NCBI GenBank assembly: GCA_963281255.1
Contig: OY725491.1
Coordinates: forward strand, 4,018,857 to 4,082,856
From: Aphrocallistes beatrix
Lineage: Eukaryota; Porifera; Hexactinellida; Sceptrulophora; Aphrocallistidae
Length of the DNA: 64,000 nucleotides
Reading direction: 5' to 3'
Below the pieces are notes generated by a model. The model was not told the origin of the DNA, made no database searches, and worked only from the letters and a program-made list of their open reading frames with translations. Positions 29,518 to 57,769 of the stretch are shown piece by piece (position 1 is the first letter of the stretch; every line of letters starts with the position of its first letter). The position numbers and the translations under genes were made by a program.

Positions 29518-29853
29518 CGTGTTCAGAGATCGTAGTGATCCTCTGGAATTCTATGATGATCTAGAATTGATGCAGCGTCTTCGCTTCTCAAGGTCAGCAA
29601 TATTAAGGAATACAGAGATCATAGTTGATCATCTTAATACCTCTGATAGATCTCATGCTGCACATCCACATGTACAAGTTTGTGTTGCTCAACAATTTTT
29701 TGCATCTGGTACTTTTCAGATTATTCGTGGTGATGGAGTTCACGTGAGCCAACCCTCAGCTTGCAGGTACATTAGAGCCGTTGCACTTGGACTACAATCG
29801 GTATATTCAAAGTTTATTAGCATGCCCGGTTCTGCTGACAAGGCTACGATTAA

Positions 29854-31053
29854 GGATACCGCCCTCGAAAAATCTTGACTGGCGTAAAAAAAAACAGCAA
29901 AATGTTTTATTGCTAATTTCATCGTATTACTGATCGGTCTACCATCTGATAGCACTATTTGGATGGCATTTTATTTTATTTTTTGCGAAATAACCCCCTA
30001 AAGTTTAGCGTTAATAAAAATTGAAAAATTTTTAGAGGATTTTAACTCATCTACCAATTAGTTTTTAACATATTTGATATTTTTTTAATGATATGAACCT
30101 TAACATTGTTTTAGCACCTTTGGAGATTATAAAACACAAAGATTTAAAAGAATGGGCAAATAAAATCCAAACAAAATAGCTCTATAAGGGAGTTCATTTA
30201 TATAATCCTCGGGAAATCGCAAGTTTGATCTCAGATATTTAGCGATCCCTGGGTCAGAAATAAAATTCTGATCGTTTCAAATAAAGATTTGTTCAGATCC
30301 GACCATTTGTTCGTGAGATATCGCATATTATAGGTAAAGTTCGGCCATAATATCAATCTAAGGTCCCGAAAGAGGCTGATGTCATATCTTAAAAACTATT
30401 GTAGATATATAATATATTATATCCTTAAATAAAAGGATATATGCGAAAATATATAGGTTCCTCGACCATTCCTTTGTCAAAAAATAAATAATTCTCGACT
30501 TATCATTCGAATAAATGTCTGTGGATGCTTATGTGCATTATTAATAATTCATTTTACATTCTTCTTAACACCTAAACTTAAAATCTCTATATCTCGGGAC
30601 TTTAAAATTTCAAAATTGACCGTCTTTACAGAATTATTTCTCAAATTTGGTTTGAGATAGAAGTTTGAAAATCTCAAGAGTTGTTTCATATCATTAGGCG
30701 ATGAACGTAGGACCACCATTTTTTGGATATATTCTAACTCGGTGATTTTATTCATGATTTCCCAAAAAAAGGTAGACTATCTATGATTCGATTTTGGAAG
30801 CGTTTGATTCCTTGGTATGTTCTAAACAATTCATTGAGTGCCTAAATTTCTACCATTAAGATGTGCTAGCGGAAAATTAAATAAACAGACTTTGAGACAC
30901 TGTATCTCAAAATCTAGAAATGAGAATCAAAAACGGTTTGGAATGTGCCAGTATTTCTTGATGGAGATACCTCCCCACACTTAACATCTCTTATAGCTCT
31001 ACTTTCATCGTATGCTGTAATGCAAATCATATGTTTTTTCGAGGGCGGTATCC
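29854..31053. mobile_element. TTAA element family 1, 1200 bp, complete
   Basis: Inverted ends GGATACCGCCCTCGAAAAA, flanked by TTAA on both sides (29,850-29,853; 31,054-31,057). It interrupts a Harbinger transposase between ADKATIK and SQFYELANLPG; the flanking codons continue exactly once one TTAA copy is counted. No ORF. Shorter than the copy at 58,565 (1,929 bp), with which it shares blocks such as TCTAGTTTTTGA and TTGAGACACTGTATCTCAAA (inverted). Confidence 0.92.
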
Positions 31054-31114
31054 TTAAGTCACAGTTTTATGAGCTCGCGAACCTCCCCGGCGTTCTTGGA
31101 CTTGTAGATGGAAC

Positions 31115-37144: not shown

Positions 37145-38765
37145 TATCTTTAATAGTTTTTAAGATTGTGCATCGGGGTCTTTCCGGGCCTAGAGAGGTT
37201 TTATGCCTGACCTTTATGCATAAATAGTCATTACTCAAGAACCAATGGTTGAATTTTAACACTACTTTTTTAAATGATTAAAAATGATATTTCTCATGCT
37301 ATAATCGCTAGATCTCTGCAAACATAGCATCATTTTTTTATAAAAGTAATACTTACACATTCCAAACCATTTTTTATTCTTATTTCTAGTTTTTGAGATA
37401 CAGTGTCTCAAACTCTGTTTTTTTCGTTTATCGCTTGCACATCTTAATGGTAGAAATCCGGCCACTCAAGGAATTGTTTAGGACATACCAAGAAAAAAAA
37501 TGCTTCCAAAATCGAATCATAGATAATCTATCATATGACTTAAAATTCTGTAAAGACGGTCAATTTTGAAATTTTAAAGCCCAGAGATATAGAGATTTTA
37601 AGTTTGATGTTAAGAAGAATGTAAAATGAGTTACTAATAATGAACAAAAGCATTCACAGAGATTTGTTCGCATTTATACTTCTGATTTAGTTATATTCGA
37701 ACCAAATATTAGCAATAGCACCCTAAAAATCCACAGATTTCCTTGAGGCCCCTAACCGTGAATATTAATTCATACTCCTAGCACTACGAAGTATAATCCA
37801 TCAGGTTAGAATGAATAAAGACCTTCCCAAACGTATATTAGGAAGTTAGAGCGAAAGTCTACGACTTCTAGATTCCAAGATAGGATTTTCGAAAAATGCA
37901 ACGTCATCATATGACAAAAATCTAAAACTTACATTCCATAGGATATAGTCCAATTATTATCTTTGAATCATATATGTACCCTCATAAAAAGTATATTTTG
38001 AAGTGAGAACTAGGAATTTGGGCTTAAATTTACAGAGAGAGATATCTCTTTCTGGACCTAAATGGGGCTTTTTGACCGAATCTGGGAGATCCAAGGCCAG
38101 AACTTTCAAAATAATTATCAAAAGTTCTCCAATTTTTCTGTACACATTATTAACGACAATTGTATCCACTATTTTGCATAATAGCCACATTTGGATACAT
38201 ATTTATTGATTCGATTCGCCATTTTCTAATATATTCAAAGTTCTCCATAGAATTTGCATTACAATTAAATCACTGATAAGTCGAGAAATATTTATTTTTT
38301 GACAAAAGAATGTTTGAGGAATCTATATATTTTCGCATATATCCTTTTATTTAAGAATATAATAGAATATATATATCTTCAATAGTTTTTAAGATATGAC
38401 ATCGGCCTCTTTCGGGACCCTAGAGGGATATTATGCTCGAACTTTGCCTAAAGTAAGCGATATATCACGAACAAATGGTCGGAACCAAACAGTTTTTTTT
38501 TGAAATGGTCAGAATTTTATTTCTGATCTAGTGATCGCTAAATATCTGTTATCAAACATGCGATTTCCTGAGCATTATATAAATGAACTCCCTTATAGAG
38601 CTATTGTGTTTGGATTTTATTTGGTCATTCTTCTAAATCTTTTTGTTATATAATCTCCAAAGGTGCCAAAACAATGTTAAGGTCCATATCATTAAAAATA
38701 ATCAAAAAGTTAAAAACTAACTGGTGAATGCATCAAAAACCTCCAATAATTTTTCAATTTTTAGT
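37145..38765. mobile_element. TTAA family 1 fragments
   Basis: Long stretches match the complete family 1 copy at 58,565-60,493: GAGATACAGTGTCTCAAACT, CACATCTTAATGGTAGAAAT, AGACGGTCAATTTTGAAATT, ATATCCTTTTATTTAAGAAT, GACATCGGCCTCTTTCGGGA. It appears to be one nearly full-length but end-less copy abutting P-like element B's left target site. No ORF. Confidence 0.75.
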
Positions 38766-38896
38766 AATGCTAAACCATACCATTCTATACATAAGGCAAT
38801 GACCGTCACCAAAAAAATAGTACAATGGATTACTTAGTATATTAAATCCTAAAACCGCTAAATTAATACTGTTATTATCAATAATATAATTATTAC

Positions 38897-40920
38897 CATA
38901 GCCTACTACATACAGGCCATTTCACTACTTTAGACCAGGGATAAGATAAAGTCGAGTTTTTAATACAATGAAATTTAACACAATATCATTTTGATATGTT
39001 TAATATCGTGTAATTATACATCCTCTACCCCACAATAATGATATTATTGACTGCTGGCATAATTTAGTTGACGGACAGGGAATACTACATAAATATATAG
39101 GTGTATATATATACATATATTAATTAGAGGTAAGTTTAAGTATCTTCCTTTGAGTATCTTTGGGACAAGAGGTGGTAGAAGTGATATTCTTGGCCTTGTT
39201 GTTGAGTAAACAGTTACTTGAAGTCATTAAAATACAACGTAGCATATCTTTTCCGTCAATACAGCAATCAGTACACTCAAAAGTCCAATCCTCACATTCT
39301 TCATCCTCAATTTTTAGAATAGCCACTGAGCCTCATCCAAATGCTCCAGGTGCGTATCGAAACTGGGCGAGTGGACACATGTGTCATCAACAAATGCCTG
39401 TACATTCGGACACCCTCGTAGAGCCTGGTCTACCGCTCGCTGATAGGTAGCCTGTGAGTTTGACAATCCAAAAGGCATGCGGTTGAATTCAAACTGGCCG
39501 CGCGTTGAAACAAACGCAGTGAACTCCCTATGCTTTTCCTTCACAGGCACGCTCCAGTATGCGGATGCCCCATCCAGTGTAGAGAATACAGTTGCCCCTC
39601 CTATACGATCGAAAACATCTCGGGGATCCGGCATCGGATAGGCATCTCGCTTCGTCACATCGTTGAGATCCCGGCAATCTACGGTAAATCGATGGGTCAC
39701 TCGACTCGCCCAAGAGGAAGAAGAGGGACGTATGATCCCATTCTCGAGCATTTCATCTATTTGCTTGGATACCTCCGCCTCAATTTCCGGAGAAACACGC
39801 AACGGTCGGCTTTTAGTAGGCCGCTCATCCAGAAGAGTGATAACGTGTTCCGCGGTTCCAATTTCGCGCGGGCTCTTCGGGTTTCCCGCGAAAACGTCTT
39901 TCCATCTCGACAGCACCTTGCGTATTGCGGCCTCTTCTCGCGGTGATAGTTTCGGGTTAATATCGAACCTGGCCTCCAAGCTATCTCCCTCCTTTCCCAT
40001 CTCAGTCTGCATAATTTCTGCTCTAGCCGCGTGCCGCAGCTAGAGGTTTTCCAACAACCACCTAGCCTAACTCTCATGTTTTCCCAATCGAAAGTAGTAT
40101 TCTTGAAGCGCGCGAGGAACCTTCGCCCCAATATAACCACCCTATTGTTAGTATCGAGTACTTCGATTTCGTGTTCTAGTGGTCGACCATCCCCCACATC
40201 TATCGCCACGCAGGCCGTACCACAGACTGCAAGCGCTGTCCGCCCTAGCCCATACACTTGACTGTACTTTGTGCTGTAAGGGATATTCATCTTTTGTACG
40301 GTGCCTCTGTCCACCATCGAAGGATCCGCCCACGTGTCCATCATTACATTGATGGGTTAACCGTTCCATTTAACTGGTACCACAACCGCCGTCTCATGTA
40401 CAACACTATGCTGCGTCGTGACCTGAAATACCCCTCTTCGACTTCGTGTATGTGGGCAATAGCGGACCTCGTGTCCTCTTTCGCCACATTTCGCACAGTG
40501 CCGTTCCGGGCATTGGGCCATAAAGTGCCTGTCCGAGTCGCAAATAAAGCACCGATCCTTCTTAGGGAATTGGCTTCCCGGATACTTCCTTGTAGGTCCA
40601 TCCCGCCTCCCCATTGCCCCTTTGCTGCGTGGCGCATCCTTATATGTATAGAAACAGTTGAGAGCTAACATTCAAGAATAAATACAACGTAAATGTAAAA
40701 AGGAACCATATAGCAGAGAAAGAAAATAGCCAAAACATTGATATATAATGTATTGGAACGTAGACTAGTTCCATATAGTTATGCATCAAACAAATGATGA
40801 ATTAGATTTGGAACAAAAAATATTTATTCATATTATGGGTGCGTAAGAAAATCCACTTTATCTTATCCCTGGTACCATGGAAAATTGTTCAGTGAAAAGG
40901 CCTTATTGTAGTAGGCTATG
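38897..40920. mobile_element. P-like element E, 2.0 kb, with gypsy cargo
   Basis: Inverted ends CATAGCCTACTACA (left) and TGTAGTAGGCTATG (right), continuing for about 60 bp to CCAGGGATAAGATAAAG on both sides. Flanked by the perfect 7-bp duplication TTATTAC (38,890-38,896; 40,921-40,927). It sits within element B. A 68-codon minus-strand frame near its left end (39,120-39,326, with FECTDCCIDGKDMLRC) may be the tail of its own lost transposase. Most of the interior is a Ty3/gypsy piece. Confidence 0.88.
39327..40672 (-). mobile_element. Ty3/gypsy fossil: gag zinc knuckles, protease, reverse transcriptase
   Basis: On the minus strand, in order: two CCHC zinc knuckles at the end of gag, a retropepsin-like region, and the first part of a Ty3/gypsy reverse transcriptase up to the catalytic-core region. 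RNase H, integrase and LTRs are absent from this piece. The copy is broken (at least two or three breaks). It is markedly richer in G+C than its surroundings and is enclosed within P-like element E. Confidence 0.85.
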
Positions 40921-40984
40921 TTATTACATATTTTGTGTTTATGGGTTGATTAAATATTCATTTTGAAAATATTATGTAACCACA
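40672..40984. other. inner flank of element E and element B sequence
   Basis: A+T-rich tail of element E (to 40,920), then element B sequence (ATATTCATTTTGAAAATATTATGTAACC) that matches element A inverted. Confidence 0.6.
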
Positions 40985-41295
40985 ATATTTATATTTACTT
41001 CGCATACAACACTAGTGTATTACACTTACGTATTGTTTTATTGTATATCATTTCTATTACTCATTTATAATGCCTCATTTGACAACACTAATTGCATTAA
41101 TTAATATTTGGACGAGATGTCTTGTGTCGCGCCTGGCTTTACTTCCAATTACAGAGTAGAACACTTATTGTTTTTTTTAATTTACCAAAAAGATGGTGCT
41201 CTTCGTGAAAATGGTATCGAGCCATTCCAAGACCTGTGAAGACTACCAAAACAACAAGATTCCAAAGGTGAGTGGTTTCTTAAGACTTAAGTAAT
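40985..41295 (+). pseudogene. THAP-domain exon remnant, element B
   Basis: About 41,117 onward: DEMSCVAPGFTSNYRVEH, then YQKDGALRENGIEPFQ and a donor-like AAAG|GTGAGTGG at about 41,269. It is the same exon as in elements A and C; THAP exons that end at a GTGAGT donor in both B and C suggest the domain is split by an intron. Frame broken. Confidence 0.7.
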
Positions 41296-42564
41296 GTAAT
41301 TATTCGAGAATCATGCATATACTCAAGTTTGTTAGAAACAATTGACTGAATTTAAAAGATTAAGAAAAAGTGTTTACCTTCCCCCAATTTAGTGAATGCA
41401 ATCCACGTTACTCCAAAAACATGTGCATAAGAACCTTATTTAATTTGGATAAATGCAGTTTATTTAAAAGTGCCCCAAATTAACATCGAAAGCCTGCTGG
41501 CTTGGAAAGGCAAAATATAAATTTGGCCCTTAAGGTGATGAGTCAACTTCTGTCAAACAGTTAGCTTATAACATGGAAAACACATTGTGAGAACCAAACT
41601 GTTGAGTTCTTGAAATTCATCAATGATGTTTGGAAAATATTCGATGTGAATTGGGTAGAGAAGAATAGTCATTTTATAAAGGATCGAATATTATTGAATC
41701 TCAAAAAAATTGATAATCGTTATTATGACTTCTTTTCCAAATATGCGTCGCAAAGATACTGTATTTCAATTTTTGCATCAATCAGAGGCTTATTTTCATT
41801 TTTACACTCAACTGAATGTTCCATTTTCCTATACAAATAACATTGTTCAAATTTTTAAATTTTTTTAGTTTGTGTTCAAGATTTTTTCCTGAGTTTGAGT
41901 GATATTTGCAAGATTATAAGTTCTATCTTTAACCCATTCATTATAGAACATAACTGACTACAATCATTAGATAATATGGAATACTGACAAAGATATGGAT
42001 TTCAAAATTGATTTATCGCTGTATTTTTGGTAATTTTCGGCTTAATTTTGTATATAAATTCGCACAGTTCTTAAAGTATTGGCTTAAACAATAAGATCGT
42101 AGTCAGCTATCTTTATTACTATATATACTTACTTTTATTTATGAATTCATTCAATTCTCACTTGATTTGGCTTTGAGAACTTGTTCAAAATGTAGTTTTA
42201 GAATCAAATTTTCCCTTATTATTCGAATAAAATTAAAATTAAAATTATCTCAAGATGTTATAAAATAATAATAACTTCAATAATTGTTTCAATGTCATAG
42301 GTATTCTATAGACAGATTATATTTCTAGATAGCAGAGCTATTTTAGAACTCAATTCTTTCTTTCATATTGAGTTCCAATTATATTTTAATTTTAGAACAA
42401 TCAAATTCCTATGAATTCGAATTAGGAACTAACAATTGTTGCGAGTTTATTTTGATGAATCCAAATTTAGGTTCACTGCATAGTCGAATTCTAATCCAAC
42501 CACTACTTCTAACTGTTAAATATTGTTTAGTATAAATAGCTAATGTAAAAGTCTCAATTATAGA

Positions 42565-42677
42565 GATAGCCCATATCCTACGCATTGACGAATGCTCTGC
42601 CTGGGTAGGAGTTCATGACAATTCCAGTATGGGACGCCTGAAAGAGTTCTTGTGAACACATGGGCTATCCGTTTTTT
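42565..42677 (+). ncRNA. candidate structured small RNA
   Basis: GATAGCCCAT (42,565-42,574) pairs perfectly with ATGGGCTATC (42,660-42,669), closing an 85-base region that can form TCCTAC/GTAGGA around a GCATT-GACG-AATGC hairpin and a second arm GTTCA/TGAAC. A T6 run (42,672-42,677), the usual RNA polymerase III stop, follows at once. This three-arm layout with a closing stem is 5S- or tRNA-like in plan, but it is not a recognisable 5S rRNA or tRNA. It lies 150 bp past the 3' end of the transposase gene, on the opposite strand. Chance folding is possible. Confidence 0.3.
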
Positions 42678-42765
42678 GCTCTAAATAATAACATTTACTT
42701 TTTAGGCTGTTTATAAAATATATTTATTGTTCCCATTCTATACTCAATTAGTAACAAACTATTGT

Positions 42766-42771
42766 TTTATT
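42766..42771 (-). promoter_or_regulatory. poly(A) signal of PHD transposase 2
   Basis: Minus-strand AATAAA about 57 bp after the stop at 42,828. Confidence 0.5.
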
Positions 42772-42827
42772 CTCAATGACTAAACAAAAAACAAGTACGT
42801 CGCTAGAATGAATAGTATTTTCTAATA

Positions 42828-45521
42828 TTATACAAAAGTTTCAAAAGAATCAACACAATCTGTACAATACCAGTCGGTATCTTCTTCAATTTCATTTTCA
42901 GCGATACCCACGCACTCCATGTGGCTCCACTGATCACATTTATCGCATTGGATCCAATTGATCTGGGTTGATTTGACTTTCAGGCCGATTCCAATGCCGA
43001 CTATGCAGTTTTCTTCAGTGCCTTGACATATTTGGCATATGGCTATTGGAGCTGATTGAGGCTGTGCAATATCCTCTTCGGAAGACGAGCTGTGAAATTT
43101 CTGGTCTGTTGAATATGCTCCAGAAGAATAGCCAGCGCCGTGTTTTCTGATTTGTCTCGCGACTTTGCTATACCGATGCTGCCTCTTAGCAAAACGGCTC
43201 TGTTGCCTGGCTTGGATCTGATAGCTTGCTTTCACCCTTCTGAGGTCTAATTTTTCGAAGTGGTTACGAATTTGTGGGGAAATTGGTATTTCAAGGAGTT
43301 GAAATAGCGTTTCTATTCCTCGGAAGCCATCATTATATCTGATGATTGCAAGGGCGGAACCTAATTGCATCATCTCATAGCTTGCATATTCATCTTTATG
43401 AACCATTCTCCATAATACAGAGTGTATGGCCTCATTATGGTTCGAGGTTCTCCCCTCTTGAACTTTTCGAATGAACTCTGGTGCATTATAGCCGAATTCT
43501 TGGAAAACATCGGTAATAATCTTGCAAGCACCTTCACTTAGGTAATTCGGGTGGTGAGGAGGAGTTCTACGATTGAAAATCGCTTCTTGGTACCGGCACC
43601 AGGTATTACTTGTGATGGGGCAAAATCTATGGTTATCTTTGGCATTGCCATCATTTGCTGAAAGATGCAAAGGAATTGCATCTATAGCACGAATAATTTC
43701 GCGAATATTGCCGCGATTACGATGTATAGCAATCCTATAGTAGCTTGCTACCTGTCCAGCAACGGTATCATTAACAGTTCGAATTGCTTTGGTAGGTCCC
43801 TCCCAGGTTCCTCTTTTGCGGGAGTCCTTTTGTAATGTGCCCCGAAATGCAGGTGATACTTGCTTCAAAGCTTCTGCCTCTGACATCCCCCCGCCTTGGG
43901 TTAATAACTGTTTTTGAAGATTCTTTTGATCTCTATTGAGTTTTAGCGCCTTTTCTTGTTTTCGAATGATGTTAATTTTGATCCTTTTGCAAACGTGAGC
44001 CAAGCATTCAATACGTTCAATTTCATGTATGCCAAGGTGTTGATAGAGACCTGCTGAATGCAATTTATGGTGAGTTTTTGTATCACCATCTGTGACTAAT
44101 CCTGAAAAAATTACACCGCGATCAAGTGCATCTTGTACAACAGATGGTGCCAACGCTGATTCAAGCTGCACAGAGGCGTAGTCTTGATACTTAGCTGTGC
44201 AAACTTTGGAGTGACTTGCGTTCCAAGTCGACAGGTCTTTTTTCGTGATTTGGCCTGTCATTAGAAGATTTTCATACTCGTTGCAAAGTTTGCATGAGTT
44301 TGATGCTATGCCATATGATAAAACCTTTCCCGTGTTTGCAGATATTGCCGCTGCAAAGCAGTACCTGCTAAATCCTCCGCCACTTTTTCCACTACGTTGT
44401 TGGTAAGAACCATCATATGAAGCAATAGCATGGACATATTTTCCATCGAATTGACATTCTGCGTGAGATTTGAGTTCATTCACCGCTCTTTTCATTGATT
44501 TTTCTGCAATATATTCGGCTGCAACTATTAACTCCCTTTCCGCTTCAACGTAAGTATGGCGAGAACAGGGGATGGGTATGCTTAGTGTCGAGTGATATAG
44601 TTCAAGCTTAGAAAGTCCCACACCAATAAGCCTGCCACCCAAAATACTACCATAGAGTAGTTCGTTTCTTTTTCGAATTTGCTGGTCCCCAACTTGAATT
44701 TTTGCTTGGGATTTAGCCCCTACACTCCAAAAGCCTTGCTGGGTGGAACATGCGGAACACTCGAGTTGTAGGTAAGTAGCAGATCCAGCCCTCTGCTTCG
44801 ATTGGAACATCCTCATGGAGCCCTTTTTGCACGATTTGCAGACCGTAAGATCATCTAACATGGTTAGGAGTGTCTGAAGATTCACTATCATGTTGTCGTA
44901 TGTTTGCATCCGCAAGGGGGTATCACATGGTTCGAAATATTCAGGCGTATACATAAGCTTTCGGTGAGCAACCGTTTCCTTATACTGTTTTTCAACAGTC
45001 GCCTTGGATGTTCCTGATATTGATCCAGGAGGTGGAGGTGGTATTGGTTTGGATTGTTGCTTGAAGCGGTCGAACTCGCTTTTCGGGAAATTCACAGGAA
45101 TAGGAGAGATAACACCTTCCCTCTCATATGTTGGCGAAAAGCTTCTTTTTGAGGAAGTGAATCTATTCCCTGGAAATTGTCTCTTGTGCCGGCCAAATTG
45201 GAACTTTTTCTTTCCCTTAGTTCTCAAATCGATGGTGCCATGGTCAACAGGTTCTTGGAATACATCATCATCTGGCTCTTGGGCGCATAGCTCCAACCCT
45301 GGTTCCAATGGAGTAATGACAGCTTGTCGTAAACCCGAAAAGGTTGGGCTATCTTCAGGGGCAAGCGGAGTATTCATGCGCGGAATAGATGTAGTTGGTT
45401 GTTGTTGAGGCGCTGGAGTTGGAGGAAGAGAATAGCTATCGCTCCTCAATATGCGACGACTTCGTGAAAAGGTCTCGTTATCATCGGACGAACTTGATTC
45501 GTTTCTGTATCTGTATGCCAT
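42828..45521 (-). CDS. Mutator/Kolobok-like transposase with C-terminal PHD finger (897 aa)
   Basis: A single open frame of 897 codons; an in-frame TAA lies 15 bp before the ATG. Residues 1-195 are Ser/Pro/Arg-rich. A zinc-like pair CKSC (228-231) and CSAC (255-258) follows. The catalytic core has IASYDGSYQQRSG (D370), LVTDGDTKTHHK (D478) and NHNEAIHSVLWRM (E697), with CKLC (410-413) and CLAHVCKR (506-513). A PHD finger (C4HC3, 829-889: CQIC, CDKC, WSHMEC, CTDC) closes the protein and may guide the complex to histone-marked chromatin, by analogy only. It differs greatly from the 795-aa copy and is closest to the decayed copy at 12-14 kb. The intact frame suggests recent activity or retained function; the insert around it has worn ends. 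Confidence 0.87.
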   Translation of the reverse strand: MAYRYRNESSSSDDNETFSRSRRILRSDSYSLPPTPAPQQQPTTSIPRMNTPLAPEDSPTFSGLRQAVITPLEPGLELCAQEPDDDVFQEPVDHGTIDLRTKGKKKFQFGRHKRQFPGNRFTSSKRSFSPTYEREGVISPIPVNFPKSEFDRFKQQSKPIPPPPPGSISGTSKATVEKQYKETVAHRKLMYTPEYFEPCDTPLRMQTYDNMIVNLQTLLTMLDDLTVCKSCKKGSMRMFQSKQRAGSATYLQLECSACSTQQGFWSVGAKSQAKIQVGDQQIRKRNELLYGSILGGRLIGVGLSKLELYHSTLSIPIPCSRHTYVEAERELIVAAEYIAEKSMKRAVNELKSHAECQFDGKYVHAIASYDGSYQQRSGKSGGGFSRYCFAAAISANTGKVLSYGIASNSCKLCNEYENLLMTGQITKKDLSTWNASHSKVCTAKYQDYASVQLESALAPSVVQDALDRGVIFSGLVTDGDTKTHHKLHSAGLYQHLGIHEIERIECLAHVCKRIKINIIRKQEKALKLNRDQKNLQKQLLTQGGGMSEAEALKQVSPAFRGTLQKDSRKRGTWEGPTKAIRTVNDTVAGQVASYYRIAIHRNRGNIREIIRAIDAIPLHLSANDGNAKDNHRFCPITSNTWCRYQEAIFNRRTPPHHPNYLSEGACKIITDVFQEFGYNAPEFIRKVQEGRTSNHNEAIHSVLWRMVHKDEYASYEMMQLGSALAIIRYNDGFRGIETLFQLLEIPISPQIRNHFEKLDLRRVKASYQIQARQQSRFAKRQHRYSKVARQIRKHGAGYSSGAYSTDQKFHSSSSEEDIAQPQSAPIAICQICQGTEENCIVGIGIGLKVKSTQINWIQCDKCDQWSHMECVGIAENEIEEDTDWYCTDCVDSFETFV

Positions 45522-46114
45522 TGCAATTATACAAGTTTATAGAATAATTTTATGTAAAACTTTGATATGTGCTTGTTTGTATTCTATGGATTAGCTCTTA
45601 TATACTTATATCGCATTCTAAAATTAACTCTTGAAATGAAAACTAAAATTAGAAAATTAAATGTAAGGATATTAGATTATGAATGTATCATATTCCAAAA
45701 GACATTATAAATTCATATAATGAATTCTAAAATTATCTTTAGAATTGAAAACTATAATTAGAAATTTCAAAAAAGTATAAGCTGGATATTTGTCTAATTA
45801 ATTAGACTTAAACTATTGGATTACAACTAATTATAGTTTAAATTCTTTGCTATCTGTAATTGGATATAACATTATATCAGTAACTGGATATCAGATAATT
45901 TTTTAACCTTAATTAATTAATATTAGATTACAACTAATTTTAGTTGAAAATCTTGCAACGGTATATACACTATCAAATTTCAATATACTATAACTCTGCC
46001 AAAAGCATTCAGAATGCAGCCAAATTTCATAATCGATGAATCTGGTGTATTATCTTCATGAAAAAGTCATTAGAAGAAAAATTATTTTTTTGGAAATTTA
46101 GTCACTTTGGACCC
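45522..46114. other. 5' flank of PHD transposase 2
   Basis: Very A+T-rich, with repeated TCTAAAATTA/TAGAATTGAAAACTA words at 45,610-45,770 that recur in loose form at 42,190-42,420 beyond the gene's other end, possibly subterminal repeats. Confidence 0.4.
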
Positions 46115-46923
46115 TAACGACGATGTATCTGCACCATTAGTATAAATTTTAAAACTTTATTTTGGCTCTTCCCATACTAATCTTATTCATTTGGCATGTG
46201 CTACTATGGAATTAGAACATTGTATACTTTGAGGCATTTTGCACATGCAATACGTCACGGTGATACATTCTACCAAAGCTATTTTTACAGTAATCAACTG
46301 TTCATTATCTAATAAAGTTAAGACCTCTATATAATGCACTACCGTAATATTGAAACATGATAATAGTAAACTAAACTTGCTAAATTCAAGAACTAATTTA
46401 ATAATTTTATTTGTTTATTTAGTCAACTTCATCATGCTGTAAAGGTCCGAAATGTGTGACTATACCCAATTGGAAGGCCAGAGTGTGTGCTTGTTCCTTA
46501 TTACTCGTAGAAGTATATTATTCCCTTATGACGTCTCAGGTCAAGTCTGTCTCTCAAGCTAAGCCAAGTCTGTCTCAAGCTAGGACAAGTCTGTCTCTCA
46601 AGCTAAGTCAAGCCTATCTCAAGCTAAGTCAAACCATAGTCTGCCATCAAGAAGTAGAAGTCCGTCTCATTAGTACTTCTCGAAATCCAATTTTTTTATT
46701 TATGAGCTTAATATTTATATTATGTAATATTTGTTTTCTCCAGAAGAAAAATCACAAATATTAAATATGTCTTGACAATTAGTGGTCATATTTGTGAGTG
46801 GGGTCACTTAAAATGCTTAATTAATCATATATAACGTATAAAGGATTAATGTGAATTTGAATATACTAAGCAATCCCTGGTCCAAAAAAGTGACTTCCAT
46901 TGCCTTATGTCTAGAATGCCATG
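46115..46923. mobile_element. element B, right arm
   Basis: Aligns inverted with element A 25,320-25,998 (ACGACGATGTATCTGCACC; CATGTGCTACTATGGAA; minisatellite TCAAGCTAAGCCAAG at 46,545-46,640) and ends with the B terminal repeat. Confidence 0.8.
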
Positions 46924-47321
46924 GCATAGCATTCTAATACACTAAGGCAATGGCGCAGACCTTTTTTTCTGGACCATGGATTGGTTAAACGAGCTAAAAG
47001 AATTTTTCTGAAAATGGTTTAATTATGCTGGTATATAACTTCGTATATCATATAATGATCCTTTTCATTAATTCTGCATCGATTTTCTTCAAATTGGTTC
47101 GAGGATGGCACTTGGTTAAACTTATTTTAAGCAACCATATTGCTTATATATTAACATATTACTTACTTGTTTTGTTTTAAAATCAACCACATGAATTATA
47201 TATTTATTTGCTACCTTGTTGTGAAGTTTTACAAATCACTGTCTTTTCCTATACACGACTCAAAGTTAATCCGAAACACTCCACATAAGCATCAATCTGT
47301 ATTACTCTTCCGGAACGACAT

Positions 47322-47620
47322 GTCCTGTGTTGTTCCAGGCTGCAAGTCCAATTATAATAGTGAAGCAGAATATCCCTCTGCTTTTCATTTCCCAAAGAAT
47401 CGTTTAGGGTAATTCCACGCCCACGGAAAGACTAGGAAGTAAACACGCTAATGTGAGTAAGTTTCTATCATTTATGTGTTATACGTATTAACTGATTGAC
47501 ACATTTACACTTTTACTCACCGTTTAGTATATACATTATTTTAAACCAGATGACATCGAGAGAACCATTACCTACAATGACGGGCTTCGTACTGTTACAG
47601 TTTCCAGGATAGAATAGCTC
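47322..47620 (+). pseudogene. THAP domain in two exons, element C (partial gene)
   Basis: Exon 1 from about 47,322: MSCVVPGCKSNYNSEAEYPS, AFHFPKN, with the Cys pair and FHFPK of a THAP finger, running to a donor AAT|GTGAGTAAG at about 47,453. After a roughly 75-bp intron (acceptor ACCGTTTAG) exon 2 reads IHYFKPDDIERTITYNDGLR, matching the '..HF..DDI' end of THAP. One zinc ligand Cys expected before HY is not visible. Frame lost after about 47,620; a later block LFRAETTLLLTVVIAL (about 48,700) may belong to the same gene. Confidence 0.65.
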
Positions 47621-47988
47621 TAAAGAAACTTGAGTACCCAGTATATTCCCCGACTACCCTTCCTATCTCTCTGAATGGAATTCCAAGCCTGAGAGACTAT
47701 CTTTGGACCACACTGAACGATTGCTGATGGAATCTGCCTACTCTACTAAGAGCATAACTGACAACGAAAAAAGGTAGATAAGTTCTTAGTTAGTTCATTT
47801 TCAGATCTTCTTTCTTAGCTCGACCTACGAAACGCCTGGATAGCTCATGTATCCAATAACTATTTTTTTTTTAATTAAGATAATTATTTCAGAAACATAT
47901 TTACTAACATGCTCGAATACAAAATGATCCATTAAAACTGAATAAAACATCATTTCGGCTTATATTGTCAGATATCTCATTCAAACTA

Positions 47989-48168
47989 CAGTCAGGGTCG
48001 CTTATTATGAATCCGCTTAATATATCCATTCGTTTATTATGAACTAACCTCCTGGTCCCAATTTCATTTTTAGATAGGATTTGTATTGAATCGAGTTCGC
48101 TTGATATGAAGTATATTATGAACAGATTTGTTGGTCCCCTGGTGGTTCACAATAAGCGACCCTGACTG
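47989..48168. mobile_element. Tigger/mariner-type MITE, 180 bp
   Basis: TA-flanked; ends CAGTCAGGGTCGCTTATTAT and AATAAGCGACCCTGACTG. Same family as 3,592-3,752. Confidence 0.9.
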
Positions 48169-48425
48169 TATAATATTTCTTATTGTAAAATTTTGGAACG
48201 TCGACTTGAATTATCCAATCATCTCAATTTTTTTTTCGATTAAACAACAATCCAATAATCCTAGTATTGGACTTTTAATTAGGACCGTGTTTCTCCTCGC
48301 CCGCATCAATATTCAGCTACCGCATATATTGTCATTTGGGATCAATATCCCATTATATTTCAGGTACAAGGGTTTATTGCTAGAGATGTCGATATACCAG
48401 CATTTCAAAATATATTGATGGTTAT

Positions 48426-48570
48426 CAGGGTTTCTTTCAGGATTTTATGTAAGGGGGGCAAATGAAGGTTTGTAGAACTATAGGGGGGCATGGCCATTTT
48501 CAATCATACACTTAAGTAATTTCCAAGGGGGGGGCAAACGCCTCCCCCCGCCCCCCTGAAAGAAACCCTG
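48426..48570. mobile_element. MITE with GTTAT duplication, 145 bp
   Basis: Inverted ends CAGGGTTTCTTTCAGG / CCTGAAAGAAACCCTG, flanked by GTTAT on both sides (48,421-48,425; 48,571-48,575). The interior is G-rich (AGGGGGGC) on one side and C-rich on the other. Superfamily undecided. Confidence 0.8.
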
Positions 48571-49445
48571 GTTATTGAGACTTCAATGCGTGAATTAAAT
48601 GTTTGTAGCCAATTATATATCAAATCATCAGCCTTGATTATATTATAAAGTAATGAGATCATGGTCATGATATAACGTCTGCCCGCATCCCCACTGAAGG
48701 TCTTTTTAGAGCTGAAACAACTTTACTATTAACAGTAGTCATAGCTCTTAAAGAATATTTAAATAGTTTGCAGATATTTTAATGAAATGTATTTAATAAT
48801 TCACAAATTGAGTACCTAAATAACGTGGCTGGGTGTGCAGTTTTCTCTTATACAAAAAATATAACCTATTTAACAACTGATAAGGGATCTCAATAAATTA
48901 TCATAGATTTATTAGACAGGGGTCACTTATGTATCCATATACAGTGGAGATTTGTACCGGTTCAATTCGTACTAAATTACTTAAGTATTAATTTTAATCA
49001 TAGTTGATGACAAATGGATTGATATGTGTGAGAGAATTGTGTTGTTGTGAAGTATACTAATTCTTCTCTTTCTTAGGAATGGTGTGACAAGACCGGATAA
49101 AGGATGAAGAAAGAGAAGTGATGTCTAACGGGATAACAACGTTTTGATCTTCCTTAATCTTAGAATATTATCTTCTCTTCATAACATCCTTCAGTTTACT
49201 AATTTTAATTCGTGTAATTCACCATTTCAATGATGATTATTTCTACTTAGTGTCTATTTGTTAGTCTTGCCGTGCTGTGCTATGAATCTATTTCGAATGT
49301 ATTTGTTGGTTTGCAATTAATATTATGATTATAATCGCTCATTTATTAAGTACTTAACCTTTTGGGCTCAATGATATGACTTTAGTAAGTGTGGTGGACA
49401 AATAGAAAGCGAATATATGTTAAATTGATAATTAGTGATAAATTC
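48571..49445. other. interior of element C, no gene
   Basis: A+T-rich, with the possible LFRAETTLLLTVV coding scrap; otherwise nothing. Confidence 0.4.
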
Positions 49446-49648
49446 ACTTAGCTCGTTTAACCAATCCATGGTCTAGAAAAAAAGGTCTGCGCCATTGCCT
49501 TAGTGTATTAGAATGCTATGGCCATGGCTAAACTTAGAGTTAACTCATAAAAATCAAAAATCAAACTAAATACCGTCCAACTAGTACTATCATATAGTAG
49601 ACAGTTCAGTAATCCTTACTATTAAAACTCGATTAATGTATATATATA

Positions 49649-51757: not shown

Positions 51758-52262
51758 TATAGTATATACACACTTTCTGTAACGAATTGATTGAAGAAAC
51801 TGCCTGGCACAGAAAGCTGATTTTTGGCATGTGGGAGTCTTTTGGCTATGGCTCCACCAAGTTCTGAGCTCATGACGAAAATGTCGACTCATCATGGAAT
51901 TATGACGTCACATTATAACTGTATTGGTTAACTTTTAAAAATGTTGCCACATTTTTAAAAGTTAAGCAATACAGTTATTCGAGCATAACTCAGCCTAGAT
52001 AGAAGGCTGAAATTTTAATAGATTATGTATATTAATATATCTCATATATGACCCAACTATAATACAAAATGATGACTTAAAACTCTGTAATGACGTCATC
52101 ATTACGCATCAAAATGTTAAAAATTGACAAATTTGGTGATTTTTCGTGCGAAATTGATTATAACATCATGACAGACGTATTTAGAGATGTTATCCCCCTT
52201 ATGATTAATCAATGGTAAACACAGGCGCCCAAAGGGCGCTTCTGGCGGACACAAAGTGTTGC
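51758..52262 (-). repeat. repeat A, copy 4
   Basis: Full-length in the minus direction: tail TGTAACGAATTGATTGAAG, body with GGCTATGGCTCC, TGACGTCA words and AAATTGACAAATTTGGTGAT, and GC-rich head GCGGACACAAAGTGT. It abuts the start of Helitron 2 coding sequence. Confidence 0.85.
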
Positions 52263-52284
52263 TCGCGAAGTTCGTCTCCTGGAC

Positions 52285-54020
52285 TTGCGGGATCGTCAGA
52301 CTTTCCGCTTAAACTGTGGGACAGAGGAGACCCGCCAAGTTCGTCTCCTAGACAAGCGGAATCGACAAGCCCGGAAAATAGCTTGCGAAACGGAAGAGCA
52401 AGCCAGTTCACGTCAGAAGTACCAGGTTAAGTCGTATGCTAAGAGAGTTAAATCTCGCATTGTCCATAATTTTGCTTGGTCAACTATTGCCACCGAAGTT
52501 CCTGATAGTATTGTCTACGAGCATTCAAGTGGCAGTATGACATACAGCTGCTCAGTGTGTCAGGCAAAATTCTGGGCGTGTGAGAACCTCTCAGGTAGTA
52601 CTAAATCCTGTTATAAGTTCTCCTTATGTTGTGGGGAGGGCAAGGTTGTTCTACTTCCTGTGGCTCCACTCCCTGAACTGTTGATGCACCTGCACCTCCA
52701 GAGTGTTGGGACGAAAGATAGTGCTTCCCTCCTCCTATACTGGCTCTCCTCGGCAGATGTTCGAGATGTACCAGGATGCAATGAGTATACTCCGGAAATA
52801 TGGTAAGCCAGACTATTTCTTTACATTTACATGTAATCTGCAATGGGATGAGATTACGTCCGCTCTCATATTAGATCAGAAAGCGTCTGAACGCTCTGAT
52901 TAAGTGGTTAGAGTCTTTAGATTGAATTTGAGAAAATTGATTTCGGATCTTATGAATAAACACATCTTGGGTAAACCCCTTGTTCATGTTTATACAGGGT
53001 GATCTATAAGTTCTGCAACAAATTTTGCTGGAGTATTATACTTACACAAGTAGATCTAACATCCGACATTTTGTTTACTTGAAAATTCTAAGGATTATTT
53101 TAATTATTTTGCAATCCAATTGCCTCTATTTCTGAATATTTTGGCTAAGGTGGATCATTAATGTTTGTGTGTTTAGAAAAAAGAGAAAAATCAAAAGAAA
53201 AGAATCTCGAGTGCTATATACATTCTATGATCATACTTTAAAAATTGTTGTTCTTATTGGTGATTTCCCGTCTATAAACTAAATGAAATAATCCTAATTT
53301 AGTATTTAGAATTAATAACTGACTGTAGGAACATATAAATATATTTAATCAGGAGAAAAAAGTTATTTTCGAACTTGACATTTTTGAGATCAGAGTATTG
53401 CAGTCCCGGAAATATAATATTTCAAAAATTTGATTTAAAAATATTTTGCGCAATAAATAGTGTTCATTTTTAAACTAGAAGGGTGGTAGATTCCATAGTT
53501 GCAATTTGCAAACTGATTAAACTAAATTATCTTAGTCCAATCAATGAAGCAAAATTTAATGTTGCAGAACTTTCGGATTACCCTATACTATTGAATTCCA
53601 AAAGAGAAGTCTTCCTCACGCGCACATTCTGATTATACTATCGGATCATGATAAGCCCAGGGAACCGTGTGAGAATGATAGAATTGTGTGTGCTGAGCAC
53701 CCTGACCCGATTCTCTAACCTCGACTGCATGCTATTGTTAAACGCTGTATGATGCACGGTGCATGTGGTGTAGCCAATAAGAGTGCTCCCTTTTTATTAG
53801 ACGGGAAATGCTCCAAGAGATTTCCAAACGCATTTTCAGCAGTTACCACAATGTCTGAAGATGGCTACCCATTGTATCGTCGTAGAAACGACGACTGTGC
53901 TGTTAATGTGGGTAGGGTACGCTTGGATAATAGATGGGTTGTACCCTACAATCCATTTTTAATATCTATACAAATACGTGTACAAAGGACACAACCGAGC
54001 TATTATAGAATTTAAGTCAG
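52285..54020 (+). pseudogene. Helitron 2 Rep region
   Basis: A zinc-like YSCSVCQAKFWACENL lies near 52,550. It is followed by APLPELLMHLH, MYQDAMSILRKYGKPDYFFT with FTCNLQWDEIT, and LRKLISDLMNKHILGKPLVH at the MITE insertion. After the MITE come IEFQKRSLPHAHILI (the HUH-type His-x-His block), RCMMHGACGVANKSAP, FLLDGKCSKRFPNAF and GYPLYRRRNDDCAVNVGRV, then the tyrosine block YKYVYKGHNRAIIEF near 53,965. Rep nicks and joins single strands in rolling-circle transposition. Reading frame shifts more than once. Confidence 0.87.
52996..53585. mobile_element. mariner MITE in Helitron 2 Rep, 590 bp
   Basis: Ends CAGGGTGATCTATAAGTTCT and (reverse complement) TAGGGTAATCCGAAAGTTCT, TA-flanked, sharing AAGTTCTGCAAC with the mariner at 49,649. 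The Helitron codons VHVY|TIEFQKRS run on across it. No transposase, so non-autonomous and probably moved by that mariner family. Confidence 0.9.
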
Positions 54021-54109
54021 GTGGTGGGAGGTAGAGGCTGCCGGAAAGAATAGGTGCATCGATGAAATATCGACTTACTTAGATGCCCGGCATGTGTCTG
54101 CCACTGAAG

Positions 54110-55202
54110 CGTGTTCAACACTGGATGAATGCCATTGATGATTCCGCGGGCTATCCTAAGGTGTTTCCGTGGACGTACCTGGCGGTACAGGTAAAATGTT
54201 CGTTTACAATACAGTGTTAGCTAAGGTCCGTTCTAGGAGAGAGATAGCCCCCGCAATGGCTTCTTCGGGAATTGCGGCACTCCTCCTAAATGGTGGCAGG
54301 ACTACATTCTAGAATGGAAGTTCCTCTCTGTGCACATTCTGCGTGTAGCATTACTAAGCAGAGTGTGCTTACCCGTCTCATCCAGTGTGCATATTTATTG
54401 GTCTGGGATGAGGCTGTAATGTCTCATAAGCATGTTGCTGAATGCATGGATCGAACTCTGAGTGACCTGTGCTCTTGCGATCTACCATTTGGAGGCAAGG
54501 TTATGGTATTTGGAAGTGATTTACGAGGAACCAGAGGTGATGTTGTTTCTGCATGTCTCAACAGATCATCTCTCTGGCATTATGTTAAGGTTTTAAATTT
54601 GACTATTAATATGCGCCTACAGATATTATCTTCACAGGAGTTCTCCAAATTCTTATCGAGGGTTGGAGAGGGCACTGAAGTCGAAGATGAGGATTACATG
54701 ATTCACGTCGACGATAAGTTTGTTGTCCCGGGAAATGATATTTCTGATTTGGTTTCTTCTGTCTATGGTGGCATTGTGAATAATTACTTTGATCGGGATT
54801 TCATGAGTCTCCGCATCTTAATGGCTCCCAGGAATGAGACAGTAGATGCCATTAACGAGTACGTTATGCAACAGATACCTGGATATGATCAAACATTTTT
54901 AAGTGCAGATTCAGTTGATGATATGCAGACTGCCATATACCCCACGGAGTTCTTGAACTCTCTAAATCCTAATGGTATGCCCCCTCATCGTCTGAAGCTT
55001 AAAGAGTTTGCATCTATTATTCTCCTGCGGAATCTTGATTCTGCTCAATGTTTGTAAAATGGCACTCGCTCGACTGTAAGATCGTTTATTAAACGTCTTA
55101 TAGACGCGGAGATTGCTACAGGTATCCATGCGGGGACTCGAGTATTCATTCCACGCATTCCACTACTTACTCCCACAGATTCTGGCCTTCTCTTCATCTT
55201 AA
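54110..55202 (+). pseudogene. Helitron 2 helicase, N-terminal two thirds
   Basis: [19 protein letters not shown] carries Walker [16 protein letters not shown] and ITKQSVLTRLIQCAYLLVWD with EAVMSHKHVAECMDRTLSDL (Walker B) follow. A 255-codon open frame (54,290-55,057) continues through GGKVMVFGSDLRGTRGD, SLWHYVKVLNLTINMRL and MAPRNETVDAINEYVMQQIP to FASIILLRNLDSAQCL; after a stop the frame goes on to RVFIPRIPLLTPTDSG, where the TTAA element cuts it. Confidence 0.88.
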
Positions 55203-56403
55203 GGTTGGCCTTTCCTATAATTGCAAACTTTTGACATTTTCAACCGATTCATTTAATTTTTTCAGTGCAGATTTAAATCGTAGAGTTATCCGCAAAACTG
55301 CATTAATAATTGAAATAATTCAACAGATAAAAACTTTTTTTAAAAAATTAGTTGATTTTACAAGGAAGAAATCGGACACGATATGCTTACAATCCCTTAG
55401 AAACTTTTCAAATTCATTCATAAATCGATGATCTAACTAATGAACAGACAGATTTTGGAAATTTTGGAAATTGTTCAAAAATCACACCAAAACACCACAG
55501 GAAGTTTATTTTTAATAATTTTGACACTACTTTTTCATAATTCACTTTATATTTGTATTATCAAAAATCTGTCTGTTCATTATGTTCTACTCTTCGAGAT
55601 CAATCAGAAACCGTTGAGTTTTCGTCCCTATGTTGAATTTACAAAAAGTTATCAATTTTATAATTACTGAAAAAAGTATCAGGAAATAGGATTATAAAAT
55701 ATTTATATATGTACCTCAATTTCCATTAGTTTTAACTGCTTTGGAATATTAAATAACATGCAAATATCCTTATTCAACAACTAATAGCAGTTCTTGACTT
55801 CAAAATATGGTATATCAAAATTTTCTCCGTCGAAAGTGGGGAAAACTGGTCATTGCTGACTGGCCACCCAAAAATAACCACATTCGATAGTGTCCGCCGG
55901 TACCGAGATCAATAACTTCTTTGAACCATGTCAGATCATCATTCTAATGCTAAATTCTAGCTCATCACTAAATTTCCACCAATTTGATATATATATTGAC
56001 CATATTTGGAGAATCTTTTGGATGTCTGTGCATAGCAACGGCCAGGAATTTTTTCACATTCCTGGCCGTTGCTAGGAACCCGCAGCCAAATAATTTATCT
56101 AAATGTGTCCAATATATATATATCAAATTGCTGGCAATTTAGTGCTGAGCACGAATTTAGCACTAAAATGATGATTGGACATGGTTCAAAGAAGTTATGG
56201 ATATGAGACTTTCTGTTTTAAAAATGTGTCCATTTTTGGGCGACACCTGGTGGTACAAGTGGCTCTAAGTGGCGAAATATTAACATTGACATTCTAAAAA
56301 TCAAAATTAATGTTTAGAACCCCTTTAGTGATCCTAAAATGGTTTAAAAGGACTTATGGCATATTTTTGATAAAAAACAAAATGCCCATAGGAAAGGCCA
56401 ACC
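55203..56403. mobile_element. TTAA element family 2, 1201 bp, complete
   Basis: Ends GGTTGGCCTTTCCTATA and ATAGGAAAGGCCAACC, flanked by TTAA (55,199-55,202; 56,404-56,407). It interrupts Helitron helicase codons between LLFIL and KRRQFPAF, which join in register with one TTAA. Contains an inner palindrome at 55,960-56,130. No ORF. Confidence 0.93.
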
Positions 56404-56640
56404 TTAAAGCGAAGACAGTTCCCAGCTTTCTGTATCACAATAAATAAGGGTCAAGGTCAGAGTTTTGAGACTGTTGGTATTTTCCTTCCTTCCCCTGAAG
56501 CCTTACTCAGCCATGGTCAACTCTATGTGGCACTTAGTCGCGTTCAGAATCCTAGAGGTTTGAAGATCATGGTTTGTGGAGGACTACAGTCTACTGGAGG
56601 AGGAGTATAGGTTAAGAATGTCGTATATCGGGTGGTTTTT
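56404..56640 (+). pseudogene. Helitron 2 helicase, C-terminal end
   Basis: [20 protein letters not shown], then [20 protein letters not shown] and [10 protein letters not shown], the standard motif V/VI end of the Helitron helicase. It has one or more shifts. Confidence 0.87.
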
Positions 56641-57418
56641 CTAACTCTCGTTAGAGAACATTCGTCATCTAGCTAGGATTTGATTGATTCATTTTCGCTG
56701 GATGATATATGGTTCGATTCTTCTCTAGAGGCAAAGAAATCTGAAAAATTGTTGTTGAAAGTATTTATATTAATTGAATGAAATATTCATTGGGACTACA
56801 AATCTTTAAAAAAATTCTAGATCCCAGGAGAGAAAAGGGGAGAATGCCGGCCCTCAAGTCCGACCAATCAACCAGTCGGGCAACAAGCCCGGCTGTTAAT
56901 GAGCAAGTTAAAATTATTTCAGTCCCTTCGATAGGTAGCTAGATATTTACCTTTTTTAATTATATAATATCTCAAGGCTTCGCAAGAAGGGAAAAAAAGT
57001 AAGTAATTTCTAAAAGCTTCGGAATATTAGCTTATATCTTTACTTTTTAATGTATGTAATTTGAATTTAGAAATTATTTAAAAAACACCTTTAAAATGCT
57101 AAGTATTATTATTATAAATTCTATATCAATATTTCTTCTTAGCAAAAAAAAAATTTTTTAAAATAAAGAATGAAATTTAAGTTGTAGATCTATTATAGAA
57201 ATTAAGGTTCTATCGAATGTTTGACAGGTGTAATTTGAAATAAAATGTGAGTTGTTGATAGGCAAGCTCTACCCTTTAAAAAAATTTAATTAGTCGACTT
57301 TAATTATTCTTCTCCCTTTCATATTTCTACATATCTTATATATTAAAATGCTAGGATTTTTATTTTTATTTTTTTGTTTATTTGTCCGAATTGATTGAAG
57401 AATTGCCAAGTCGTAGAG
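56641..57418. other. no gene; Helitron 3' flank
   Basis: Contains the GC hairpin at 56,873-56,891 (GTCGGGC, AACAA, GCCCGGC) in A+T-rich DNA, which could be a Helitron terminal hairpin though no CTRR end follows. At 57,385-57,410 a 'GAATTGATTGAAGAA' word marks a distant relative of the repeat A tail. Confidence 0.4.
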
Positions 57419-57761: not shown

Positions 57762-57769
57762 CGTAGAGA

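Follow-up and report, generated by a model that had tools for sequence, protein, structure and literature searches.

The transposable elements B, C, and E, which lie nested in the 64,000-nucleotide stretch of Aphrocallistes beatrix DNA analyzed here (the window), belong to an already known kind of transposon and are relatives of the fruit fly P element. They are very probably internally deleted, non-autonomous P-superfamily transposons that are mobilized in trans by 3.5- to 3.8-kb relatives encoding THAP and RNase H domains and that insert with a 7-bp stagger. This explanation is based on the ends of the elements, their target duplications, insert-free sites, relics of the transposase, coding elements that share those ends, and a target preference.

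RESULTS

Three 7-bp duplications delimit a nest of insertions

The nest is layered such that repeat A contains B and B contains E, D, and C, with an additional small inverted-repeat element within C (Table 1). Direct reading of the sequence bore out every coordinate that the earlier note had given for the three 7-bp duplications, GCTAAAC for B, TTATTAC for E, and GCCATGG for C. Its count of four nested elements holds if either outer repeat A or inner element D is included, although the note itself documents three. B ends at 46923 (...GAATGCCATG), so that the target of C consists of the last six bases of B and the base with which B's duplication starts, and the G at 49527 is common to the right-hand GCCATGG and the right-hand GCTAAAC, as the nest requires. 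When the whole window was scanned for 20-bp inverted ends flanked by 6- to 8-bp direct repeats, only E and C among the resulting 28 rows combined a 7-bp repeat with CATA ends, both at the positions in Table 1; B was missed because C sits between its end and its second duplication. The inverted ends of B extend over 44 bp at 82%, and those of E extend over 44 bp at 80%.

The locus is best explained by insertion of B into repeat A, with E, C, and the unrelated element D entering B later and C landing exactly over B's right end. The nest yields a relative order of insertion without dating assumptions.

TABLE 1 Features of the nest and of repeat A, in window coordinates
Feature	Position	Strand	Evidence or remark
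Further copy of repeat A	~29850-31058	-	
Outer repeat A, left part	37344-38775	.	B's insertion site; resumes at 49527-49613
B target duplication, left copy (GCTAAAC)	38769-38775	.	Read directly; single in L023, L028, and window 29947-30062
B left end (starts CATACCATTCTATACATAAGGCAATG)	38776-38896	+	Final 7 bases are the E target TTATTAC
E target duplication, left copy (TTATTAC)	38890-38896	.	Direct reading, end scan
E, non-autonomous P-type element with internal Ty3/gypsy gag-pol piece	38897-40920	.	
C-terminal P-type transposase relic in E	39129-39359	-	L104 protein residues 827-908, tblastn E = 1.7e-11
Open reverse-transcriptase frame of 232 aa within E	39314-40012	-	PF00078, E = 2.1e-18
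E target duplication, right copy (TTATTAC)	40921-40927	.	Read directly
B middle piece	40928-41676	+	Transposase relic from ~41295, broken by D, resumes at 46117
D, unrelated element with Mutator-like transposase	41677-46114	-	TA at 41675-41676 and 46115-46116
D open reading frame	42828-45521	-	PF20700 (E = 4.9e-39) and a PHD finger
B right piece and right end (...CATTGCCTTATGTCTAGAATGCCATG)	46117-46923	+	Direct reading and other B copies
C target duplication, left copy (GCCATGG)	46918-46924	.	Read directly; overlaps last 6 bases of B
C, non-autonomous P-type element	46925-49520	.	Inverted ends of 84 bp that are 95% complementary
THAP and C-terminal transposase relics in C	~47299-47397, 47531-47602, 47622-47771, 48756-48929		tblastn with P-type proteins
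Small inverted-repeat element in C	~48426-48568	.	Missing from those other C copies that align 1-1501 joined to 1645-2017
C target duplication, right copy (GCCATGG)	49521-49527	.	Direct reading
B target duplication, right copy (GCTAAAC)	49527-49533	.	Read directly; shares 49527 with C duplication
Further copy of repeat A	~58561-60497	+	

Insert-free sites and transposase relics

Sites without the insert, whose existence the earlier note had predicted, are present for B and E. The left part of repeat A matches one locus (L023) at 86 to 90% and, from 38356, another (L028) at 89%, both of which are without B; one GCTAAAC is kept in three of the four B-free A copies examined, the fourth having diverged at that place. 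All six B copies that are continuous across E's site have no duplication there. Two other B copies, C14 and C16 (L107 and L108), were considered as also carrying insertions at E's exact site, which was rejected because other sequence adjoins B a few bases to the left, and E_L034 was considered as a case of E within B at the same site, with poor alignment at the junction. In B copies free of D, the middle piece runs straight on into the sequence that here starts at 46115. The claim that C inserted into B's terminus stood up as well, in that none of the 16 B right ends fetched elsewhere has a C terminus after B's end. Both the D-free copies and the right ends were picked from the matches listed as ones that align at these places.

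The interior of each element holds remnants of a P-type transposase. The relic in B matches the L103 protein (tblastn, E = 4e-24), and the best match among the C relics has an E value of 2.5e-10 by tblastn. The reverse-transcriptase frame carried by E finds its best solved match in 4ol8, a reverse transcriptase/RNase H (E = 3e-26), with Ty3 Gag-Pol (7q5b) next.

Duplication length in genome copies

E, B, and C each occur in many copies, and their copy numbers are lower bounds because 40 candidates were scored per search (40 of 142 for E, 40 of 1648 for C, and 40 of 406 for B and D). Both ends were read in 56 copies; 45 of these carry a perfect 7-bp duplication and 2 a perfect 8-bp duplication, while 3 match at 6 of 7 bases and 6 show none. 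By family, with the window copies included, the perfect 7-bp class comprises 20 of 27 E copies, 12 of 14 B copies, and 13 of 15 C copies. The expectation that every intact copy would show 7 bp was therefore too strong in its "every," although 7 bp is the rule, and what establishes the rule for the families is the genome-wide set of copies rather than the three duplications of the nest, on which the earlier note had relied.

The E count excludes 3 of 30 loci (L032, L036, and L037) in which both ends were missing at ≤5 mismatches in 22; L032 still has a matching 7-mer. Sixteen B pairs were fetched, 12 with both ends among the matches listed and 4 with a guessed left end, 3 of which lacked the terminal repeat and were excluded, leaving 13; one of the 3 excluded pairs is explained by the P-type element in L105. 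The C pairs fetched were 14 of the 21 having two ends among the matches listed, excluding the window.

End-to-end E matches (positions 1 to 2024 in one piece) make up 25 of the 40 scored places, including the window copy, at 93 to 100%, and the median pairwise identity of 30 E copies is 97.5% in aligned columns. Two E copies on different contigs, L020 and L021, have flanks that are identical across all 2,393 bases compared.

Target preference

The insertion sites lean to TAN-(7 bp)-NTA. This preference was read from 48 sites with perfect 7-bp duplications only, L020 and L021 being entered once here and twice among the 27 E copies. TA is found at -3/-2 or +2/+3 in 42 of the 48 sites and on both sides in 18, relative to 0.8% of random window positions, and the heptamer begins with G in 22 sites and ends with C in 26. 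Swapping half-sites among insertions did not lower palindromy (1313 of 2000 shuffles reached or exceeded the observed value), so the symmetry of the sites reflects a preference by column rather than pairing within a site. Insertions that recur at identical heptamers within other repeats stand out among these results. One heptamer struck repeatedly shows how far the target preference can steer insertion into other repeats.

Coding relatives with the same ends

THAP domains and RNase H domains of the P type are encoded by elements of 3.5 to 3.8 kb that have ends in common with B, C, and E. Six were read, of which four have a perfect 7-bp duplication and a fifth matches at 6 of 7 bases. The shared ends are seen when CATAGCCTACTATACATAAG in L101 and L106 is compared with E and when CATAACATTCTATACACTAAGGCAATGG in L103 is compared with B and C. 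L103 combines a P-type protein with B/C-type ends, and its left end is damaged, with no duplication; because this element is the closest in its ends, the link between coding elements and 7 bp is indirect for the B/C subgroup.

THAP and the PF21787 RNase H domain share one frame at three of the six loci (L101, L102, and L106) and lie in separate frames in L105, whereas THAP was absent from the frames scanned in L103 and L104. The PF21788 GTP-binding domain scored above cut-off in L104, L105, and L106. In the one protein aligned with 6p5a, that of L102, the residues at D230, D303, and E531 are D, D, and E (numbering of the solved Drosophila P transposase, from the available portion of PMC7776569). 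Given that the frames of some coding elements are interrupted, with one stop in L101 and overlapping frames in L105, these elements are autonomous by structure only. The genome has 131 or more matches to the P-type RNase H, many of them in open frames. Together, the relics in B, C, and E and the coding elements with the same ends uphold the earlier description of these families as THAP-linked members of the P superfamily.

DISCUSSION

In the mechanism that we propose, P-type THAP/RNase H transposases from the 3.5- to 3.8-kb relatives would mobilize B, C, and E in trans. The transposase would excise an element at its CATA ends and join it to a target with what is probably a 7-bp stagger, preferring TAN-(GNNNNNC)-NTA, and repair of the stagger would produce the 7-bp duplication. 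The motif GGACCAKGGAT, ~45 bases from the ends, is a putative transposase-binding site.

The largest intact open reading frame inside the nest is that of D, encoding PF20700 and a PHD finger, and P transposases are represented in B, C, and E by relics only; these observations could suggest that the Mutator-like transposase of D belongs to B and moves all three elements, the THAP pieces being captured fragments. We regard this as extremely unlikely. Among the matches listed, at least nine D copies of ~4.4 kb lie elsewhere at 95 to 100% (seven at 100%), six of which are flanked by sequence other than B. Moreover, the ends of B, C, and E match P-type coding elements. Eight D-free B copies were read, which carry the target once at D's site, and comparison with them gives D a 2-bp TA duplication at this one comparable site rather than 7 bp; D's transposase was rejected as the mover on the strength of the D-free copies and the 2-bp TA. 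Mutator superfamily elements have target duplications of 8 to 11 bp, and the flanks of the six other D copies gave no clear value for D.

It is just as hard to credit that the direct repeats arose by chance or as an assembly artifact, even though only three duplications were cited at first, each of 7 bp and in AT-rich DNA, and even though the identical flanks of L020 and L021 on different contigs imply some duplication, real or artifactual, in the assembly. A perfect 7-mer pair is expected at two random window positions with a chance of 0.00012, yet 45 of the 56 copies, which are spread across many contigs, share the 7-bp length, and insert-free sites occur at independent loci. Chance and simple assembly error were rejected on these grounds, the junctions being known from the assembly alone. 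A further alternative, that the insertions were not independent and that E or C came with B through duplication of a nested unit or through recombination between related ends, seems very unlikely. The similar sequences of the C and B ends make recombination or end exchange conceivable, and long identical copies are present in the genome, but E, C, and B are each bounded by a clean duplication of their own, there are B copies that lack E, C, or D, and E and C are present at many other sites with separate duplications.

Beyond trans-mobilization of deleted P-type elements, we tentatively raise a broader reading, which we consider possible but doubtful, that these families form a P-superfamily radiation apart from Drosophila Galileo and 1360, with a fixed 7-bp stagger, a TAN-(7)-NTA target, repeated strikes on the same heptamer in inverted-repeat arms, and a captured Ty3/gypsy piece spread in E. 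If this reading is true, the ends of elements serve as landing pads. The geometry of the strand-transfer complex determines how long the duplication is. Within the P superfamily, the enzyme with a solved structure makes 8 bp, and Galileo and 1360 make 7 bp; the 131 or more matches to the P-type RNase H in this genome, together with its 7-bp copies, offer many sequences for asking which residues fix the stagger.

Comparison with known P-superfamily elements

The earlier note had likened the 7-bp duplications to those of the P superfamily, which fits some members and not others. Galileo and 1360 also make 7-bp duplications, Galileo occasionally 8, according to the available parts of PMC4168063 and PMC3276498, whereas the P elements of Drosophila, Anopheles, and zebrafish make 8-bp duplications in the accessible text of PMC7776569, PMC1562414, and PMC10983969. 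No 7-bp P-type elements outside Drosophila and no P elements carrying retrotransposon pieces were found in the literature searched, with Repbase and subscription papers outside its scope.

As excerpted in the same two sources, Galileo and 1360 share with the elements described here a palindromic target motif that reaches past the duplication. It starts with G and finishes with C in GTANTAC for Galileo (PMC4168063) and GTTNAAC for 1360 (PMC3276498); in the present sites, G comes first in 22 of 48 and C comes last in 26 of 48. The elements here differ from both in their outer TA pair (TAN...NTA) and weak inner consensus. Their inverted ends, 44 to 84 bp where measured (B, C, and E), also differ from the unusually long ends of Galileo (PMC3688188, in part). 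The canonical, Anopheles, and zebrafish (Pdre2) P elements share with the families described here a THAP domain, a D-D-E RNase H, and a GTP-binding insertion domain, and the ends of Pdre2 likewise start with CATA (CATACCTGTCAAC; available section of PMC10983969). Other close counterparts are the P-MITEs of Anopheles gambiae, which, as far as the accessible text of PMC1562414 describes them, retain P ends around a non-P center and are multicopy; they differ from the elements here in their 8-bp duplications, and the center of E differs from theirs in holding an identifiable Ty3/gypsy piece whose reverse-transcriptase frame is open in the window copy.

Nest junctions and order of insertion

Read directly from the sequence, the three 7-bp repeat pairs lie where the earlier note placed them: GCTAAAC (38,769 and 49,527), TTATTAC (38,890 and 40,921), and GCCATGG (46,918 and 49,521) bound B, E, and C, respectively, which are nonautonomous P-superfamily elements. 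The right-hand duplications of C and B overlap by one base, at 49527, as is required by the proposed history in which C landed across the right end of B. Prior to this event, B ended in ...GAATGCCATG, followed by GCTAAAC, and the target of C took in the last six bases of B and one more, the base with which B's duplication starts. The inverted ends of C span 84 bp (95% complementary), those of E span 44 bp (80%), and those of B, measured across the nest, span 44 bp (82%).

The flanks of B belong to a repeat, A, and B-free copies of A carry a single GCTAAAC at L023, L028, and window 29947-30062; a fourth (window 60287-60398) is more diverged and has another heptamer. Six B copies run uninterrupted across the E site, and all six have it once: L109 keeps TTATTAC unchanged, and the remaining five have variants of it. 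Thus, the predicted insert-free sites exist for both B and E. None of the 16 B right ends fetched was directly followed by a C terminus. In B copies lacking the Mutator-like element D, the D site is present once, as TTTTAACG or close variants (L128 is a shorter variant); relative to these copies, the window junctions (TTTTA...D...TAACG) indicate a 2-bp TA duplication, in contrast with the 8- to 11-bp duplications of Mutator elements. At least seven other ~4.4-kb copies of D are 100% identical among the matches listed, which suggests that D is young. Its right end contains a 143-bp unit that occurs in tandem in several copies. A came first, B inserted into A, and E, D, and C subsequently inserted into B, in a relative order that the nest does not fix.

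At L067 (C16:2914830-2914960), the right end of B adjoins ATGGATTGGTAAAC, which by eye is much like C sequence some 50 bases inside its end; B possibly inserted into a C-type end here, the opposite of the window nesting.

Features of the window associated with the nest and its surroundings
Feature	Position	Strand	Description
D	41677-46114		Mutator-like (PF20700) transposase, C-terminal PHD finger
Second PF20700 open frame	3952-6339	minus	795 aa
Reverse transcriptase frame in E	39314-40012	minus	232 aa
Another B/C-type element	25314-27416		2.1 kb, ends CATAGCATTCTATATACTAAGGCAATG; flanks GCTGTGC and GCTGTGT (6/7)
Inverted-repeat structure	51873-63972		~12 kb
Pif1-like helicase frame	54290-55057		within the ~12-kb structure

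Target duplications across the genome

The 100.5-Mb assembly (28 contigs) contains end-to-end, one-piece matches to E at 25 of 40 scored places, including the window copy, and C and B are likewise multicopy. Both ends were present in 27 of the 30 E loci fetched, and 20 of these had a perfect 7-bp duplication; L013 had a perfect 8-bp duplication within low-complexity DNA, L023 and L024 matched at 6/7 positions, and L011, L017, L019, and L029 had none. Among the 13 B pairs with both ends (16 fetched), 11 were perfect, L053/L054 matched at 6/7, and L049/L050 had no duplication, while 12 of 14 C pairs were perfect, L081/L082 had 8 bp, and L085/L086 had none. In total, 45 of 56 copies carried a perfect 7-bp duplication (the window's own B and C included), with the chance of such a match for one pair being 0.00012. 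The claim that every intact copy has a 7-bp duplication therefore holds as the main rule but not for every copy.

E copies L020 (C11) and L021 (C10) lie on different contigs with flanks identical over the 2,393 bases compared, which contain a long inverted repeat; they represent either a recent large duplication or an assembly duplicate.

Coding relatives and internal relics

The P-type RNase H domain PF21787 matches at least 131 places in the genome, many within long open frames. Of six such loci fetched, L101, L102, L105, and L106 are elements of 3.5 to 3.6 kb whose ends are inverted and flanked by a perfect 7-bp duplication. The ends of L104 are of the E type, and its duplication matches at 6/7 positions (GTGAGAT, GTGAGGT); L103 has B/C-type ends, the left one damaged, and no duplication. 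THAP and PF21787 share one frame in L101, L102, and L106 and occupy separate frames in L105; in the frames scanned, L103 and L104 have PF21787 without THAP. PF21788 scored above the cutoff in L104, L105, and L106. A single stop breaks the reading frame in L101, and that of L105 is also interrupted. In an alignment of L102 with 6p5a, the solved structure of the Drosophila P transposase, the catalytic positions named in PMC7776569 are D, D, and E.

The window elements retain relics of P-type transposases: the middle part in B, split by D; the N-terminal THAP region and C terminus in C; and the C terminus in E. CATA or CATG starts the ends of B, C, E, and the coding elements, except for L105 (CGTGACC) and the damaged L103 end. 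About 45 bases from the ends, most elements have, by eye, GGACCAGGGAT or GGACCATGGAT, with variants, a putative transposase-binding site.

The closest solved structures to E's reverse transcriptase frame are 4ol8 and Ty3 Gag-Pol chain 7q5b, and all 30 fetched E copies match the frame. Over aligned columns, E copies are 96.1 to 100% identical (median, 97.5%), and the copy nearest to the window's E is 98.8% identical to it. Their longest frames are 182 to 524 aa on the reverse transcriptase strand and 96 to 237 aa on the opposite strand; we claim no selection from these lengths. E is thus a P-type element that carries part of a retrotransposon. It resembles the Anopheles P-MITEs, whose centers are unrelated to P (PMC1562414).

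Target choice and repeated hits

In 48 distinct perfect-duplication sites (19 E, 12 B, 13 C, and four coding elements), the strongest columns were TA at -3/-2 (33/48) and +2/+3 (27/48); the next highest offset reached 11. This outer TA occurred on both sides of 18 sites, one side of 24, and neither side of 6, relative to 0.8%, 15.9%, and 83.2%, respectively, of random window positions. The duplication began with G in 22/48 and ended with C in 26/48, and palindromy did not exceed the column-composition expectation.

Some heptamers were hit repeatedly. E copies L027, L031, and L033 occupy the same heptamer of another repeat, as L029, whose end is degraded, probably does; by their flanks, so do C copies L073/L074 and L075/L076. 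This heptamer is insert-free in L013, L014, L018, L020, L028, L030, and L038, and the repeat resembles the arms of the ~12-kb inverted-repeat structure. In another B copy, the L105 coding element sits exactly at E's TTATTAC: its duplication reads GTAATAA, which is TTATTAC in reverse complement, and lies immediately next to B sequence starting at window 40928. Because its ends are unlike those of E, we take this hit as independent. E copy L030 is inserted in a copy resembling B, roughly a dozen bases from the TTATTAC site.

Copies of TTATAGGAAAGGCCAACCTT with 0 to 3 mismatches occur at window 28435, 35982, 37123, 55220, and 56386; its heptamer GAAAGGC is the site of C copy L087/L088 and also lies next to the right end of the L103 coding element.

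Comparison with known P-type elements

The earlier finding was correct and passed its own genome test in the main: the window offers a well-documented example of nested P-superfamily elements. The part worth following is the broader P-type radiation, with its 7-bp duplications and hot heptamers. Our literature search, which covered few subscription papers, found no report of 7-bp P-type elements outside Drosophila. Published 8-bp duplications are described for Drosophila P (PMC7776569; motif GTCCGGAC, PMC3276498), Anopheles P (PMC1562414), and zebrafish Pdre2 (PMC10983969). For Galileo, the length is 7 bp (PMC4168063, PMC2775673), rarely 8 (PMC4168063), and for 1360 it is 7 bp with the motif GTTNAAC (PMC3276498).
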